In this document: piece after piece, positions 1,177 through 6,995 of the stretch
Numbering within the stretch: position 1 is the stretch's first letter
How the letters are laid out: each line of letters opens with the position of its first letter
Assembly: GCF_947486615.1 (NCBI RefSeq)
Contig: NZ_CANKUD010000006.1
Span: forward strand, 186,001 to 250,000
Direction of reading: 5' to 3'
From: an uncultured Modestobacter sp.
GTDB taxonomy: Bacteria; Actinomycetota; Actinomycetes; Mycobacteriales; Geodermatophilaceae
DNA length: 64,000 nucleotides
Notes under the pieces: generated by a model
The model's database searches: none
Told to the model about the DNA's origin: nothing
What the model saw: the letters and a program-made list of their open reading frames with translations, nothing else
Translations under genes and position numbers: made by a program

Positions 1177-2181
1177 TCAGGCGGGGACGCGCAGCGACAG
1201 CGGGTGCCAGGTGCGCCACCGGCCGGGCCGGACCGCCGCGCAGGTCAGCCGGTGCGCCTCGCCCGACAGCCGGCTCTCCACGGTGACCAGCACGTCGCCG
1301 GCCGGGCCGGCCAGCGTCACCTCGAACCGCTCGGCGCCCCCCTCCGGCGACTCGAGCGTCCGCACCCGCCGGGTGGCGAGGTCGTCGACGCCCAGCAGCC
1401 CGAGCTCCGAGCGGGCGTGCTGCTGCGCGGCCTGCGCGGCCGGCGCGACCCCGGCGCGGCCGCGCAACCACGGCAGCGCGACCTGGCCGGCCGCGTGTGC
1501 GGCGAGCAGCGCGGCGCCGTCCTCGGGCACCTGGCCGTAGACGAAGCCCCAGGGCAGGACGACGACGTTGGCGGCGAACCGGTCACCGCCCAGGTGGCTG
1601 GTCTCCCAGACGTCGGCCGGGACGCCGCCGGTGGGCAGCGCCCGGGCCAGCGGCCGGCCCCGCACCGCGCAGCAGACGTCGTGCGCCCCGTGGGTGCAGA
1701 CCAGGTAGGTGGGCACCTGCGTCGGCTCGCCGACCGAGCCGTCCCAGGGCCGCTCGAGCAGCTCGGCGTCGGACTCCCGGGTCGACCACGTGACCGTCTC
1801 CCGGCCCGGTGTGGTGTCGGCGACCGCCCAGCGCCGGCCGGAGTCGGCCAGCCGTTCCCCGGGCCGGCGCACCATCTGGATCCGCACGCCCAGCTCCCGC
1901 GCCCGGGCGGCCAGCCGGGAGGCGACCCGCCGGTCGAACCGGGACTCCAGCAGTGCGTCCCGGCCCCACGGCCCCGGCTGCTCCACCAGCAGCCACCGGC
2001 GGGCCGGCGGTGCGGTCGCGACGGGCGAGTCGCCCCGCAGCAGCGCCTGCACCGAGCACCGGACGTCGTCGAGCCGCCCCGGTGGGCTGGAGCGGGGCGC
2101 GACGACCTCCCCGGCGTCCTGGCAGAACTGGGGGTCGACCTCCGGTGGCTCAGGCCTCGGTGCGGTCGTCACGTGTCCCAT
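1177..2181 (-). CDS. Sucrase/ferredoxin-like family protein
   Basis: This is a sucrase/ferredoxin-like protein, a thioredoxin-fold family related to [2Fe-2S] thioredoxin-like ferredoxins. The family is named for a yeast gene, and its biochemical role is unsettled. The diagnostic segment is VCTHGAHDVCCAVRG followed by HLGGDRFAANVVVLPWG. The Cys/His-rich CTHGAHDVCC stretch is the likely cofactor-binding region. The ATG at 2181 is chosen because GGAG precedes it closely; a longer start at 2196 and a GTG at 2172 are also open. The start lies inside the end of the JmjC gene (about 30 bp overlap), so the two are probably co-expressed. An electron-transfer role for the neighbouring oxygenase is inference. 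Confidence 0.8.
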   Translation of the reverse strand: MGHVTTAPRPEPPEVDPQFCQDAGEVVAPRSSPPGRLDDVRCSVQALLRGDSPVATAPPARRWLLVEQPGPWGRDALLESRFDRRVASRLAARARELGVRIQMVRRPGERLADSGRRWAVADTTPGRETVTWSTRESDAELLERPWDGSVGEPTQVPTYLVCTHGAHDVCCAVRGRPLARALPTGGVPADVWETSHLGGDRFAANVVVLPWGFVYGQVPEDGAALLAAHAAGQVALPWLRGRAGVAPAAQAAQQHARSELGLLGVDDLATRRVRTLESPEGGAERFEVTLAGPAGDVLVTVESRLSGEAHRLTCAAVRPGRWRTWHPLSLRVPA

Positions 2182-3484
2182 CGTGCTCCGCGGCACCGCC
2201 GGCCCGGGCGCCCGGGACGATCGCGATCGACTCGGTCACCAGCCGGCGGGCCAGGGTGAGCTGGTCGGCGGCGTCCAGGCCCGGCAGATCACCCACCTTC
2301 AGCTCACCGGCGGCCAGCAGCGCGGCCAGCGCGGGGTGGGTGCTCGCCGGCAGGTCGTGGGTGCGGCGGCCGGCGACCAGGGCGACCCGCTCGCCGGCCG
2401 GCTCACGCAGCTGCAGGCGCAGCTGCGGCCGCACCCGCAGCACGGTGTCGGCGGTCAACGCCGCGATCGCGGTGGACTGGGCCAGCGGTGAGACCGGGGC
2501 CGGCCGCACCTGAGCCCAGGTGCGGGCCCGCAGCGCGTCGGCGACGGCGACCGGGTCGACCTCGCCGAGCCAGCGCTGCAGGCCCGACAGCACCGCGGCG
2601 ACGTCCTCGGTGGTGGCCGCCGGGTCGGCCAGGTCGACGCCGAGCGGCAGCGAGCCGCGCAGCGCGGGGTCGTCGGCGGCGAGCGTGCGCACCAGGTCCA
2701 GCGCCGACTCCACCGCGCCCCACCGGGTCACCGAGTGCACGCCGACGGTCAGGTGCGCGCTGATCTCACCGAGCGCGACCGCCGAGTGCAGGTAGCCGCG
2801 GGGCAGGTAGAGGGCATCGCCGGGGCGCAGCACGGCGTCGATGACCGGCGGGCGCTGCGCGGCGGCGGCGACCTCGTCGGCCCGGTCGGCCCAGGGGTGG
2901 GTGCGCAGCGGGTCGGGGAGCACCGGCTCGTGGATCGTCCAGTGCTTCTCACCGGCGATCTGCAGCACGAACACGTCATGCACGTCGTAGTGCGGGGAGA
3001 ACCCGCGCGAGGACGGCGGGGTGATGTAGGCGTTGACCTGGGTGGGGTGGCCGAGGTCGGCGGCGAGTTGGTTGGCGAAGTCGATCAGCGGCGGCCACAG
3101 CCGGTGCAGGCCCTGCAGGACGACGGTGCTGCCGTCGGCGAAGAGCCGGAGCACCGCGTCGGAGGAGACCTGGTCGGCGACCTCGGCCCCGGCGCCCTGG
3201 GGGCTGGTGAACCGCTTGGCGTCCACGACGGCGCCGTCCTTGGCGATCCGCAGGAACGGGGTGCGCAGCCCGCGGGTGCTCAGCAGCTCGTCGACGGCGG
3301 CCAGGTCGAGCAGGTCGGTGAAGGTGCCGCCGAGCTCGGCGGCGGTGGAGAGGAGGGGCCGGCGGGCCCAGTGCTCGGTGGCGAACACCTCCGGGTCGAC
3401 CCGGATGCACCGGCGCAACGCGGGACGGGCACCGTCCTCCGAGGTGGAGGACGGTGCCCGGTCCTGCAGATCAGGGTCGAGCAC
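2150..3484 (-). CDS. JmjC-type cupin 2-oxoglutarate/Fe(II) oxygenase (ROXA/MINA-like)
   Basis: A 444-residue cupin of the JmjC ribosomal-oxygenase type. Known relatives are YcfD/RoxA, which hydroxylates arginine, and MINA/NO66, which hydroxylate histidine, all in ribosomal proteins. The expected iron triad is present: His165 and Asp167 in FSPHYDVHDVF, and His233 in LPRGYLHSA. KHW (180-182) resembles the family's co-substrate region. A C-terminal region of about 150 residues fits the winged-helix domain of the family. Translation starts at a GTG only 2 nt after the stop of the repeat-peptide gene, which suggests coupling. The target could be that peptide or a ribosomal protein; the sequence alone cannot decide. 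Confidence 0.85.
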   Translation of the reverse strand: MLDPDLQDRAPSSTSEDGARPALRRCIRVDPEVFATEHWARRPLLSTAAELGGTFTDLLDLAAVDELLSTRGLRTPFLRIAKDGAVVDAKRFTSPQGAGAEVADQVSSDAVLRLFADGSTVVLQGLHRLWPPLIDFANQLAADLGHPTQVNAYITPPSSRGFSPHYDVHDVFVLQIAGEKHWTIHEPVLPDPLRTHPWADRADEVAAAAQRPPVIDAVLRPGDALYLPRGYLHSAVALGEISAHLTVGVHSVTRWGAVESALDLVRTLAADDPALRGSLPLGVDLADPAATTEDVAAVLSGLQRWLGEVDPVAVADALRARTWAQVRPAPVSPLAQSTAIAALTADTVLRVRPQLRLQLREPAGERVALVAGRRTHDLPASTHPALAALLAAGELKVGDLPGLDAADQLTLARRLVTESIAIVPGARAGGAAEHDGTRDDRTEA

Positions 3485-3486
3485 GG

Positions 3487-3786
3487 TCAGGCCGAGCCGT
3501 CCGCGCCGCCGTCGTGCTGCCCGGGCGTGCCGCCGCCGGCACCGGAGTCGGCCGGACCCTCGGCGCCACCGTCGGCACCGCCGTCCGCGCCACCGTCGGC
3601 ACCGCCGTCAGCGCCACCATCGGCACCGCCGTCGTGCTGACCCGGGGTGCCGCCGCCGGCGCCGGAGTCGGCCGGACCCTCGGCGCCACCGTCGGCACCG
3701 CCGTCGTGCTGACCGGGCGTGCCCTCGCCCGCGCCCGAGTCCGCGGGGCCCTCGGTGCTGGTCATGTCGTCGTCGTCGAACGCCAT
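3487..3786 (-). CDS. Gly/Asp/Ala-rich tandem-repeat peptide, candidate substrate of the JmjC oxygenase
   Basis: A 99-residue protein. It has an 11-residue acidic N-terminus (MAFDDDDMTST), then three 24-residue units (residues 12-35, 36-59, 76-99). Each unit begins EGPADSGAG and ends TPGQHDGGADGGA or a one-residue variant. Between units 2 and 3 lies a run of four DGGA tetrapeptides (60-75). There are no Cys, Trp, Tyr, Arg or Lys residues, and each unit has a single His. The start at 3786 is fixed by GGAGG 5 nt upstream. Its stop is 2 nt before the JmjC start. I recognise no family. It may be a ribosomally made, post-translationally hydroxylated peptide or a disordered surface protein. That it is a real gene is supported by the good ribosome site, the tight coupling and the in-frame repeats. 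Confidence 0.75.
   Translation of the reverse strand: MAFDDDDMTSTEGPADSGAGEGTPGQHDGGADGGAEGPADSGAGGGTPGQHDGGADGGADGGADGGADGGADGGAEGPADSGAGGGTPGQHDGGADGSA
3490..3753 (-). repeat. Three 72-bp coding tandem repeats with a 12-bp minisatellite run
   Basis: Within the peptide gene the units occupy 3682-3753, 3610-3681 and 3490-3561. A 48-bp stretch of 12-bp DGGA codon blocks lies at 3562-3609. Units 2 and 3 are nearly identical at the DNA level, whereas unit 1 differs at more third positions. This suggests recent duplication or gene conversion of units 2 and 3. Confidence 0.85.
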
Positions 3787-3923
3787 GGTTCCTCCGATCG
3801 TCGTCATCGTGACCGCCGGACGGCGGCCACCTGGAGCTGTTCTACCGCGAAGATCCATTCCCCACACCTCCGGGGCCCGAGGCGTCCCGGTTGCCCACAA
3901 CCGGTGTGGCAGGGTCGCAGGCG

Positions 3924-4910
3924 ATGAACGCCCCCGGAACTGCTGGTCCCGCCCCCGATGCGGTGGCCAGCACCGCGGCGGCGTTCCGTGCTCTGCTCGA
4001 GGACGGCTGGTCCCCGCCGCTGCCCGGCGCCGGCGCCACGCTCACCCGATGGCGGTCGCTGGCCGCGGTCGCCCGTCGCGACCTCCCGCTCGCCCGGCTG
4101 GCCGAGGGGCACGCCGACGCCGTGTCGGTGCTGGCCGAGCTGGGCGGCCCGGCGGTGCCCGAGGGCGCCCGGCTGGGGGTGTGGGCCGCCGAGCCGCCGG
4201 ACGGCCAGGTCGTCGCCACGTCGACGCCCGAGGGCTGGCGGTTGTCCGGCCGGAAGCGGTGGTGTTCCGGCGCCGGCACGCTGACCGCGGCCCTGGTCAC
4301 CGCGGCCGCCGAGGACGGGCGCCGGCTGTTCCTGGTCGAGCTCGGCCGGCCGGGCGTACGGGTCGACCGCACGACCTGGGTGAACGCCGGCATGGCCGGC
4401 AGCGACACCGCCGACGTCCACCTGCTCGACGTCGCGGGCGTCCCGGTGGGGGGCCCGCGCGGCTACCTGGACCGGCCCGGCTTCTGGCACGGCGGCATCG
4501 GGGTCGCGGCGGTCTGGGCCGGTGGCGCGCAGGGCGTGGCGGCGGCGCTGACCGCGGCCGCCGTCCAGCGCGGGCCCGACCCGCTGCGCGACGCCGCCCT
4601 CGGCGCGGTCGACGCGCTGCTCGCCGGGGTCGACGCGGCACTGCGGGCGGCCGCCGCGGAGGTGGACGCCGACCCGCTCGACCGCACCGGTACGGCGCAG
4701 CTGCGCGCGCAGCGGGTGCGTGCGCTGGTGGCGCGCGCCGGAGCGGAGGTGCTCGACGTCGTCGGGCGTGCCCTCGGCGCGGGCCCGCTGGCCCACGACG
4801 CCGAGCACGCCGCCCGGGTCGCCGACCTCACCGTCTACCTGCGCCAGCACCACGGCGAGCGCGACCTGGCCGCGCTCGGTGCACTGGTGCGGGAGCGGGG
4901 CGGCCGGTGA
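3924..4910 (+). CDS. Acyl-CoA dehydrogenase-like protein (short)
   Basis: A 328-residue protein of the acyl-CoA dehydrogenase superfamily, shorter than the usual 380 or so. The middle resembles the family's beta-domain: GWRLSGRKRWCSGAGTLTAA near 105 and WVNAGMAGSDTADVHL near 155. The C-terminal half is the helical bundle. The N-terminal helical part is abbreviated and I cannot place the catalytic Glu, so it may be a non-canonical FAD protein. The ATG at 3924 has a CAGGGT hexamer 8 nt upstream, which may be a -10 for a near-leaderless mRNA. Its stop overlaps the start of the PIG-L gene, making it the first gene of a four-gene cassette ending at 6995. Confidence 0.75.
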   Translation: MNAPGTAGPAPDAVASTAAAFRALLEDGWSPPLPGAGATLTRWRSLAAVARRDLPLARLAEGHADAVSVLAELGGPAVPEGARLGVWAAEPPDGQVVATSTPEGWRLSGRKRWCSGAGTLTAALVTAAAEDGRRLFLVELGRPGVRVDRTTWVNAGMAGSDTADVHLLDVAGVPVGGPRGYLDRPGFWHGGIGVAAVWAGGAQGVAAALTAAAVQRGPDPLRDAALGAVDALLAGVDAALRAAAAEVDADPLDRTGTAQLRAQRVRALVARAGAEVLDVVGRALGAGPLAHDAEHAARVADLTVYLRQHHGERDLAALGALVRERGGR

Positions 4911-5650
4911 CCGGGGACCGGATCGCCGCACCGGGCACCGCGGAGCAGGTCTGGACGCCGTGGCTGACCGCGCAGGACTGGCCGGCCTGGGTGCCGGACC
5001 CGAGCTGGACCAGGGTGGCCGTCTGCGCCGCCCACCCGGACGACGAGGTGCTCGGCGCCGGGGGAGTGCTGGCGCTGCTGGCCGGCGCGGGGGTGCCGGT
5101 GCACCTGGTCGCGGCCACCGACGGCGAGGGCAGCCACCCGGGCAGCGTGGCGCTGCCGGCGGCCGAGCTCGCCGCCGCCCGGGTGGCGGAGACCGTGGCC
5201 GCGCTGGCCGAGCTGGGCGTGCCGGCCCGGGTGACCCGGCTGCGGCTGCCGGACTCCGGGCTCGCCGGGTGCGAGGGCGAGCTCACCGAGCGGCTGGCCG
5301 CCGCCGTCGCCGGCTGCGACGCGGTGCTGGCCCCGTGGACCGGCGACGCGCACCCCGACCACGAAGCGGTGGGCCGGGCCGCAGTGGCCGCCGGGGCCGC
5401 CGCCGGTGTGCCGGTGTGGCAGTACCCGGTGTGGGCCTGGCACTGGGCCACCCCGGAGGACCCCCGGGTGCCCTGGCACACCGCGCACCGGGTCGACCTG
5501 CCGCCGGCGGTGCGGGCCGCCAAGCGGGCCGCGGTGGCCCGGTTCGTCACTCAGGTCCAGCCGCTGGGTCCGGCCCCGGCCGACCGGGCGGTGCTGCCGG
5601 CCGGGGTACTGGCGCACTTCGACCGTGACCTGGAGGTGCTCTTCCGGTGA
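4907..5650 (+). CDS. PIG-L family N-acetylglucosaminyl deacetylase-like protein
   Basis: A 247-residue LmbE/PIG-L zinc hydrolase, a family that de-N-acetylates sugar amides such as GlcNAc-inositol in mycothiol or bacillithiol synthesis. The signature AAHPDDEVLGAGG is at about 38-50 (zinc His and two Asp). The distal zinc His block DAHPDHEAVGRA is at about 146-157. It starts with a GTG overlapping the upstream stop (GTGA) and overlaps the methyltransferase gene in the same way, so the cassette is one translational unit. It is more likely specific to the cassette's own glycoconjugate than MshB, because the neighbours are a methyltransferase, a glycosyltransferase and an acyl-CoA dehydrogenase. 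Confidence 0.85.
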   Translation: MTGDRIAAPGTAEQVWTPWLTAQDWPAWVPDPSWTRVAVCAAHPDDEVLGAGGVLALLAGAGVPVHLVAATDGEGSHPGSVALPAAELAAARVAETVAALAELGVPARVTRLRLPDSGLAGCEGELTERLAAAVAGCDAVLAPWTGDAHPDHEAVGRAAVAAGAAAGVPVWQYPVWAWHWATPEDPRVPWHTAHRVDLPPAVRAAKRAAVARFVTQVQPLGPAPADRAVLPAGVLAHFDRDLEVLFR

Positions 5651-6261
5651 GCCTGCCGCCGTCCTTCTTCGACGCGATGTACGCCGCGGCCGACGACCCC
5701 TGGTCGATGCGCACCCGCTGGTACGAGGAACGCAAGTACGCCCTGACGACGGCGGTGCTCCCGCGGCGGCGGTACGCCGACGGGCTCGAAGTCGGCTGTT
5801 CGGTCGGCGAGCTCACCGCGCGGCTGGCCGACCGGTGCGACCGGCTGACCGGGTGGGACGCCAGCGCCGCTGTGGTCGAGCGGGCCACCGCGCGGGTCGC
5901 CGGCCGCGGACATGTGCGGATCGAGCAGGCCACCGTGCCGGCCCGGCCGCTGCCGCAGGTCGACCTGCTGGTGCTCTCCGAGGTGCTCTACTACCTCGAC
6001 GCCGCCGATCTGCAGCGGTTGCTCACCCAGGTGGCCGCCGCGGTCCGGCCCGGCGGCACGCTGCTCGCGGTGCACTGGCGGCACCCGGTGGCGGAGTACC
6101 CGCAGACCGGTGACGCGGTGCACCAGGCGTTGCGGGCGGCCCTGCCCTGGCCGCGGGTCGCCGCGCACGAGGAGCCGGACCTGCTGCTCGACTGCTGGGT
6201 GGCGGCCGACGCCGGGGACCTGCGGGCCGCGTCGGTCGCCGCTGCCGAGGACCTGTGGTGA
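5647..6261 (+). CDS. NodS-like class I SAM-dependent methyltransferase
   Basis: A 204-residue Rossmann-fold methyltransferase. DPWSMRTRWYEERKYALT at about 17-34 and LEVGCSVGELTARLAD at about 47-62 (SAM motif I) resemble NodS and related N- or O-methyltransferases. DLLVLSEVLYYLDAADL near 107-123 is the motif IV region. It begins at a GTG overlapping the PIG-L stop and ends by overlapping the glycosyltransferase start. Its position after a deacetylase suggests methylation of a freed amine on a sugar, as NodS does on Nod factor; this is inference. Confidence 0.8.
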   Translation: MSLPPSFFDAMYAAADDPWSMRTRWYEERKYALTTAVLPRRRYADGLEVGCSVGELTARLADRCDRLTGWDASAAVVERATARVAGRGHVRIEQATVPARPLPQVDLLVLSEVLYYLDAADLQRLLTQVAAAVRPGGTLLAVHWRHPVAEYPQTGDAVHQALRAALPWPRVAAHEEPDLLLDCWVAADAGDLRAASVAAAEDLW

Positions 6262-6995
6262 GCGGGGTCGACCTGCTCGGGGTCCTGGTGCCCGCGCGGG
6301 ACGAGGAGCAGTTGCTGCCGGGCTGCCTGGCGGCGCTGGCCACCGCCGCCCAGCTGCCGGGGTTGACCGGCACGGCGGTGCAGCTCGTGGTGGTCGCCGA
6401 CGGCTGCACCGACGGCACGGTGGCGGTCGCCCGCCGGGCCGGCGTCGAGGTGCTCACGGACGGCGGTCCGGCCGGCAACGTGGGCCGGGCCCGGCACCGC
6501 GGCGCGCTGCACCTGCTGTCGGTGGCCGCCCGGGCCGGGGTGGCCGCCGACCGCGTCTGGCTGGCCAGCACCGACGCGGACAGCCGGGTGCCGGCCGACT
6601 GGCTGGGCGTGCACCGGAGCGCGGCGCGGTCGGGCGCCGACGCGTTCGTGGGCACGGTGGAGATCGACGACTGGACGGGGTTCGCCCCCGGGGCCGTGCG
6701 GGCCTTCGACGTGGCCTACGACGCCTGGCGGGCCGGTGGCGCCGGCGCCGTCCACCCGCACGTGCACGGCGCCAACCTGGGCGTGCGGGGCAGCGCCTAC
6801 CTCCGGGCTGGCGGCTTCCCGCGGCTGGTGGTGAGCGAGGACCACGGTCTGGTGGACGCCCTGGTGCGGAGCGGGGCCAGCGTGCTGCGCAGCCCGCTGG
6901 CCCCGGTGGTGACCTCCGCCCGCCGGGCGGCCAGGTCACGAGGTGGTCTCGGCACCGATCTCGACCGCCTGGCGACGCGTTTCGGCGGCGGGTGA
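6258..6995 (+). CDS. Family 2 glycosyltransferase
   Basis: A 245-residue soluble GT-A glycosyltransferase. The N-terminus VLVPARDEEQLLPGCLAAL is the nucleotide-sugar binding start of the GT2 fold. ASTDADSRVPADW near 95-107 carries the D-x-D metal motif. GANLGVRGSAYLRAGGF near 173-189 and SEDHGL form the acceptor and catalytic region. There is no membrane segment, unlike NodC. It is the last gene of the acyl-CoA dehydrogenase/PIG-L/methyltransferase cassette. The GTG at 6258 forms the 4-bp overlap; a GTG one codon earlier is also open. Donor and acceptor are unknown. Confidence 0.85.
   Translation: MSGVDLLGVLVPARDEEQLLPGCLAALATAAQLPGLTGTAVQLVVVADGCTDGTVAVARRAGVEVLTDGGPAGNVGRARHRGALHLLSVAARAGVAADRVWLASTDADSRVPADWLGVHRSAARSGADAFVGTVEIDDWTGFAPGAVRAFDVAYDAWRAGGAGAVHPHVHGANLGVRGSAYLRAGGFPRLVVSEDHGLVDALVRSGASVLRSPLAPVVTSARRAARSRGGLGTDLDRLATRFGGG

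Follow-up and report, generated by a model that had tools for sequence, protein, structure and literature searches.

An Asp-rich repeat peptide encoded beside a ribosomal oxygenase-like JmjC protein in a Modestobacter sp. and its relatives: a possible peptide-modification system

JmjC enzymes of the ribosomal oxygenase (ROX) group, such as NO66/RIOX1, MINA53/RIOX2 and YcfD/RoxA, are known for the hydroxylation of ribosomal proteins. JmjC enzymes have also been linked to ribosomally synthesized and post-translationally modified peptides (RiPPs): BipG, the ornithine hydroxylase of biphenomycin biosynthesis, is reported as a JmjC enzyme whose substrate is a ribosomal peptide (PMC12707348), and a survey of RiPP recognition elements (RREs) reports RRE-like folds fused to PF08007, with bacterial relatives in RiPP-like contexts (PMC12710340). 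Here we describe an operon with likenesses to both in a 64,000-nucleotide stretch of DNA (the window) from the 4.7-Mb genome of an uncultured Modestobacter sp. (contig NZ_CANKUD010000006.1, positions 186,001 to 250,000). The operon encodes a small repeat peptide, a JmjC protein and a Suc_Fer-like protein. We estimate a probability of about 60% that it is a RiPP-like system whose JmjC enzyme oxidizes Asp in a repeat substrate encoded by the same operon; its role in peptide modification is one that we infer from the sequences. The pairing of peptide and enzyme recurs over much of the actinobacterial phylum and probably represents a modified-peptide family for which we found no description: literature searches on the peptide strings, on JmjC enzymes and RiPPs, on Suc_Fer and on the Pfam accessions, with most subscription papers outside their reach, returned no account of the trio, and those on the peptide strings gave papers whose titles were unrelated.

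The three genes lie on the minus strand in one tight operon. The peptide gene (3487-3786), preceded by a Shine-Dalgarno-like GGAGGA (3790-3795), encodes 99 residues that begin with an acidic leader segment, MAFDDDDMTST (3754..3786). This is followed by repeat unit 1, EGPADSGAGEGTPGQHDGGADGGA (residues 12-35; 3682..3753), repeat unit 2 (residues 36-59; 3610..3681), four DGGA tetrads (3562..3609) and repeat unit 3 (residues 76-99; 3490..3561), which has the C-terminal sequence HDGGADGSA. Translation confirmed the three 24-residue units, the absence of Arg and the three His residues that a preliminary description of this DNA had reported, and indicated that Cys is also absent. The gene spacing given in that description was likewise correct: two bases separate the TGA of the peptide gene from the GTG of the JmjC gene (2150-3484, 444 residues), and the start of the Suc_Fer-like gene (1177-2172, or possibly from 2196) precedes the stop of the JmjC gene, such that the two overlap. 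The JmjC open reading frame (ORF) matched PF08007 (E 7e-27); for the third gene the match was to PF06999, Suc_Fer-like (E 1e-16). The window peptide had no family in Pfam, NCBIfam or PADLOC; nine related peptides had none in Pfam and gave one match far below cut-off in NCBIfam. The peptide and the Suc_Fer-like gene each had a single match in the genome (E <= 0.001), and the JmjC gene was nearest to copies in named Modestobacter records.

The pairing of the peptide with the enzyme was studied in 199 loci, mostly best matches rather than a random sample, of which 176 remained after duplicate removal and 10 with less than 400 nt upstream were set aside; the listing of class genomes contributed 29 new loci and 60 further loci fetched from a longer list. 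Within the family Geodermatophilaceae, 108 of 112 genomes had a JmjC match. An upstream repeat ORF of the DGGAD type, recognized by a motif set that was defined after peptides had been seen, was identified in 135 of the 138 loci whose JmjC protein was at least 43% identical to that of the window (57/57 at 70% or more, 52/53 at 50-70% and 26/28 at 43-50%). At lower identities it was found in 0/3 (39-43%), 1/18 (33-39%) and 0/7 (<33%) loci, and 7 of 1,674 control stretches had such an ORF. With edge loci included there was a match in 142 of 176 loci, and the 135 of these that could be trimmed to a start formed the peptide set used below, in which a trimming rule placed the starts, some of them wrongly.

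A peptide search of 394 class genomes gave a similar picture. It used one DGGAD-type query at E <= 1e-5, overlooking some real peptides (e.g., that of locus L119 in genome G023), and matched 45 genomes, all 45 within 268 nt of a JmjC match; no peptide match was found away from a JmjC gene in these genomes at this threshold. The window JmjC protein itself matched 132 of the 394 genomes at E <= 0.001, not all of these matches being orthologous. The preliminary description had proposed a tight coupling of repeat peptide and enzyme, which orthologues regularly lacking the peptide would have contradicted. Instead, the short gene adjoins the putative modifying enzyme and is conserved with it (135/138 loci; 45/45 genomes), as is typical of RiPP precursors. 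The full trio, also suggested earlier, proved to be a common unit: 138 of 174 loci have a Suc_Fer match 3' of the JmjC gene and in the same orientation.

Codon-level comparisons indicated that the peptide is a real protein under purifying selection. In 60 same-length peptide pairs from 57 loci, the ratio of nonsynonymous to synonymous differences (pN/pS) was 0.23 in the peptide frame versus 2.5 and 2.0 in the two alternative frames. Within a single peptide, consecutive GGAD units differed at the third base of their codons (0.47 per codon; the choice of motif fixes the first two bases), which indicated that the repeats are more than recent DNA copies. After trimming, the 135 peptides were 55-177 residues long, their length tracking repeat number, and 85 of them, including that of the window, had a C-terminal DGGADG[ST]A. 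The short acidic leader noted earlier was also borne out in the relatives: in 113 of the 135 peptides the motif [DNSE]D[DES][DMIT] occurred among residues 1-25, and some of the 22 without it by this pattern lacked it through start trimming.

Modelling of the JmjC protein indicated that it has a ribosomal-oxygenase fold. The AlphaFold model had a predicted local distance difference test score (pLDDT) of 92.9 and its best PDB match was NO66, followed by MINA53 and YcfD (TM-scores about 0.5-0.64, root-mean-square deviation mostly 6-8 Å), and the family profile aligned to NO66 along nearly its whole length. As in these three enzymes, JmjC, dimerization and winged-helix domains were found together with the Fe/2-oxoglutarate residues. 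The iron triad that had been described as intact (His165, 2990..2992; Asp167, 2984..2986; His233, 2786..2788) did not vary among 55 aligned homologues or among 172 aligned loci. Lys180, which we take to be the 2-oxoglutarate-binding residue, was present in 172/172 loci, and Asn151 and Tyr153, the Asn/Tyr pair shared with the ROX enzymes, each in 171/172. Unlike NO66, MINA53 and YcfD, the window family has a conserved acidic peptide in its operon and Gly in place of the substrate-contact Ser: 168 of 172 loci have Gly248 at the position aligned to NO66 Ser421 and one has Ser, with equivalent residue numbers counted by hand from an alignment in which the counterpart of NO66 Arg297 was not placed with certainty. 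Published accounts state that this Ser (Ser421 in NO66, S257 in MINA53) contacts substrate (PMC6006756; PMC9994133).

The junction between the peptide and JmjC genes has features that bear on expression. The 5' end of the window JmjC ORF contains a perfect 15-bp hairpin with a 5-nt loop (3426..3460), and 68 of 135 loci have a perfect arm of 9 to 21 bp within 80 nt past the stop of the peptide gene, compared with none of the 135 at +400. In L018, L021, L033 and other loci, the sequence of the hairpin between the two genes changes and its pairing is kept. Twenty-five of the 135 loci (among them L020, L024, L036, L040, L112 and L125) have no ATG, GTG or TTG ahead of JmjC residue 34 (the conserved Phe34), and each of these has a CTG in the JmjC frame close to the stop of the peptide gene, which in 23 loci overlaps that stop as CTGA. 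The window has such a CTGA (3487..3490), in which the peptide stop overlaps a CTG that is in frame with JmjC, and also the GTG at 3484. A CTG start is likely for the JmjC enzyme. We go no further than this, because an in-frame CTG was also found in 63 of 110 loci with a usual start (47 as CTGA), which counts against its use, and because a peptide gene that ends in GCC-TGA produces the overlap by itself when JmjC is in that frame. Relative to the peptide gene, 88 of 135 JmjC ORFs lie in the -1/+2 frame. A programmed -1 frameshift that would make the JmjC protein was also considered and is disfavoured, as in L063 and L136, which have no usual starts, the JmjC ORF is in the peptide's own frame after the TGA.

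The hairpin and the CTG overlapping the peptide stop suggest translational coupling, and with it the main rival explanation, namely that the JmjC protein is a housekeeping ribosomal oxygenase and that the unmodified peptide regulates it, for example as a bound inhibitor or substrate mimic or as a translational throttle. The ROX fold, winged helix included, and the finding of no peptide match away from JmjC genes are also consistent with this explanation. We consider it rather unlikely, as an ORF for translational coupling would need less purifying selection than the peptide shows, the variation of length with repeat number (55-177 residues) suits a polymeric substrate over a stoichiometric inhibitor, and Gly stands at the ROX serine position.

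If the peptide is a substrate, its composition bears on which residue would be modified. Asp was present in 135/135 peptides and Cys in 0/135, and His was missing from 18/135, whose loci encode JmjC proteins 35-77% identical to that of the window; L077 (Micromonospora avicenniae) has such a natural His-free peptide. Since Asp is universal, His is missing in these 18 and the ROX serine has changed to Gly, Asp is favoured over His as the putative target. His, which the preliminary description had named beside Asp as a candidate, was not borne out as a shared target, given also that distant cores share only their richness in Asp. A substrate peptide modified at His, by C-3 hydroxylation as performed by NO66 and MINA53, nevertheless deserves weighing: the nearest solved structures are those of His hydroxylases, and His occurs in 117 of 135 peptides, often as GHDGG or QHDGG. 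Against this stand the His-free peptides, the mostly His-free distant cores and the Gly in 168/172 loci, and we regard a His target as improbable. FIH, also a JmjC enzyme, reportedly oxidizes Asn, Asp and His (PMC9994133).

The distant cores came from a set of 176 loci (166 loci and 10 new phylum loci, the latter from 42 phylum genomes with matches). A rule for Asp-rich composition, written after peptides had been seen and failed by some recognized peptides, identified an Asp-rich small ORF in 149 of 176 loci and at 20 of 3,418 control positions. Where JmjC identity was below 43%, such an ORF was present in 29 of 38 loci. The distant cores occupy the same place, also in genomes outside the class, and are of the DADGTDGDATD type, contain DTTDSTD, or belong to peptides of 35-38 residues ending in GTDSSSDFI or GTDGSSDFI. 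Their leaders are mostly DDD[MI]- or DEDI-like (e.g., LSDDDMTT or VEDEDIVTT). Thus an acidic leader is kept while the cores vary from (DGGA)n to DADGTDGD types, as in RiPP precursors with a conserved leader and a variable core.

Several neighbourhoods of distant JmjC genes were viewed individually. In L192, L196, L200 and L204, the peptides of 35-38 residues ending in DFI lie between the JmjC gene and an ORF that we read as S9-peptidase-like. Plasmid relatives were all below 60% identity (135 records); in one of the two plasmid neighbourhoods viewed, that of S. clavuligerus (L210:8808-10203), an Asp-rich ORF of 48 residues with repeated ADxDPxDP lies upstream of the cupin gene, and S9 peptidase and ABC transporter genes are nearby. 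In L201 the JmjC gene is directly downstream of a candidate TfuA-like ORF, presumably related to TfuA, a partner in RiPP thioamidation.

The C-terminal winged-helix domain of the window JmjC protein (about residues 345-421; 2222..2452) was modelled separately (pLDDT 87.8). ROX winged helices ranked first in Foldseek, and ranks 25-34 contained, besides further ROX rows, TruD, another heterocyclase (which we take to be LynD) and ThcOx, with chains of TigE and McbBCD following. The matches to RiPP enzymes were weak (E 0.045-0.74). We take TruD, the cyanobactin heterocyclase, ThcOx, TigE and McbBCD to hold RREs, and they are the next structural neighbours of the domain after ROX; they also share with the window family a short substrate leader. 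Next to its ROX resemblance, the domain has a weak likeness to RREs. Unlike the operons of RRE-bearing RiPP enzymes, the window has no azole-forming, radical SAM or similar enzyme among the proteins scanned. The PF08007-RRE fusions of the survey cited above have the same domain pairing and relatives in RiPP-like contexts; the section consulted describes neither a precursor family or repeat core nor a Suc_Fer partner or a distribution in actinobacteria (PMC12710340).

Several observations weigh against a RiPP-like system. Three loci with JmjC identity of at least 43% have no DGGAD peptide: L070 (57% identical) has no recognizable peptide, and in L153 and L157 (~48%) a different acidic ORF ending in GPTxEPGA replaces it. 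No Asp-rich ORF was found in 9 of the 38 distant loci. The best RRE-type Foldseek match had an E of only 0.045, unrelated proteins were interspersed from rank 35, and PqqD (PF05402) was unmatched in 33 sequences of the C-terminal domain. Leader loss and shrinkage of the C-terminal domain were concordant in 108 + 15 loci and discordant in 14 + 2 (n=139), several of the 14 being contig edges or misplaced motifs; we rejected this covariation as independent evidence, because it corresponds to about one or two tree events and independent pairs were unsupportive. Finally, NO66 and MINA53 are reported to be highly His-selective (PMC9994133).

The Suc_Fer-like protein was compared with yeast Apd1, which we assume to belong to Suc_Fer and in which HxGGH presumably supplies two His ligands of the cluster. 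Apd1 is reported to contain a [2Fe-2S] cluster with 2Cys2His ligation (PMC11126956). The Suc_Fer copies of the JmjC loci resemble Apd1 in their conserved Cys residues and HxGG motif. Unlike Apd1, the 138 aligned copies have Asp (124) or Cys (14), and never His, after HxGG, so the 2Cys2His site with HxGGH is not found in them. This suggests a changed cluster ligand. The window protein is of the HxGGD subtype.

Thirty Suc_Fer loci were also fetched irrespective of JmjC, from the best matches of 118 genomes. The JmjC-linked copies among them had Asp in 11/11, and the unlinked ones His in 18/19 and Asp in 1/19. Eight further copies were hand-picked, six of them unlinked, and comprised six with Asp and two with His; the Asp copy of genome G205 adjoins a JmjC gene and that of G128 lies ~2 kb from a distant one. 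In total, 20 of 25 unlinked copies typed were HxGGH. The unlinked Asp copies came from G157, G175, G190, G204 and G139, genomes that each carry a JmjC gene elsewhere, which indicated that the Suc_Fer subtype accompanies the JmjC system also where the genes lie apart. The two picked His copies (G159, G192) likewise came from JmjC-bearing genomes. L264, L269-L271 and L274 are among the loci of the HxGG[D/C] subtype, and every typed Asp copy came from a genome in which JmjC was also matched. The sole typed Suc_Fer from the genus of L153 and L157 (L272) is HxGGH.

Based on these comparisons, we propose that the small ORF would be the substrate, with an acidic leader (about residues 1-11) and an Asp/Gly/Ala repeat core. 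The winged-helix, RRE-like domain of the JmjC protein may hold the leader while the ROX-type Fe(II)/2-oxoglutarate oxygenase oxidizes the repeated core. The likeliest target would be the Asp beta-carbon in DGG/ADG steps, which would give many modifications per substrate molecule. The Suc_Fer protein, a dedicated subtype, could provide electrons, either keeping the oxygenase iron ferrous or serving a further redox step, and the hairpin and weak CTG-type starts may hold the enzyme scarce relative to its substrate. A more specific proposal, tentative and in our judgment doubtful, is that of a phylum-wide and so far undescribed class of ribosomal poly-hydroxyaspartyl peptides, made by a single ROX-type JmjC enzyme with an RRE-like domain that would oxidize numerous Asp residues in each precursor, with a dedicated Asp/Cys-ligand Suc_Fer helper and, in many species, an enzyme started at a CTG overlapping the stop of the precursor gene. 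If that were true, the shared winged helix would unite ribosomal oxygenases and RiPP leader-binding enzymes in one lineage. If the operon is a RiPP-like system, there would be a RiPP-like family across Actinomycetota that hints at the way in which ribosomal oxygenases and leader-binding enzymes are related, and an orphan ferredoxin subtype (Suc_Fer) would gain a partner. As a large bacterial ROX branch encodes its own repetitive partner peptide, the substrate question is directly testable.

Upstream of the peptide genes, the pattern GKTT-N13-17-GGGTA was found in 15 of 134 cases (shuffled mean 0.17); it was chosen after viewing an alignment, and 11 of the 15 belong to the 13-locus Micromonospora-like set that prompted it. 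We take the pattern to resemble a general-stress sigma promoter. Asp-rich cores bind divalent metals, and the peptide might be a disordered, metal- or stress-related acidic protein that the enzyme hydroxylates to tune metal binding, with no natural product in the RiPP sense. The stress-like promoter pattern would fit this, as would the finding of no transporter or protease among the seven window proteins scanned for families. We consider it decidedly improbable, as no IdeR- or Zur-like pattern, and hence no sign of iron or zinc regulation, was matched in the 135 upstream regions, and a leader with a variable core is more RiPP-like. An SOS-like pattern was present in 29 of the 135 peptide upstream regions.

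With respect to gene content, the BipG cluster differs from the window in adding a transporter, an MNIO (multinuclear non-heme iron-dependent oxidative enzyme), a radical SAM enzyme, an HExxH hydroxylase and a metallopeptidase, and the substrate residue of BipG is Orn (PMC12707348). The divergent neighbours of the window operon (3891-6995) encode acyl-CoA dehydrogenase-like, PIG-L and NodS-like methyltransferase proteins and an ORF that we read as a putative glycosyltransferase. This neighbour set adjoins the trio in only some Geodermatophilaceae loci.

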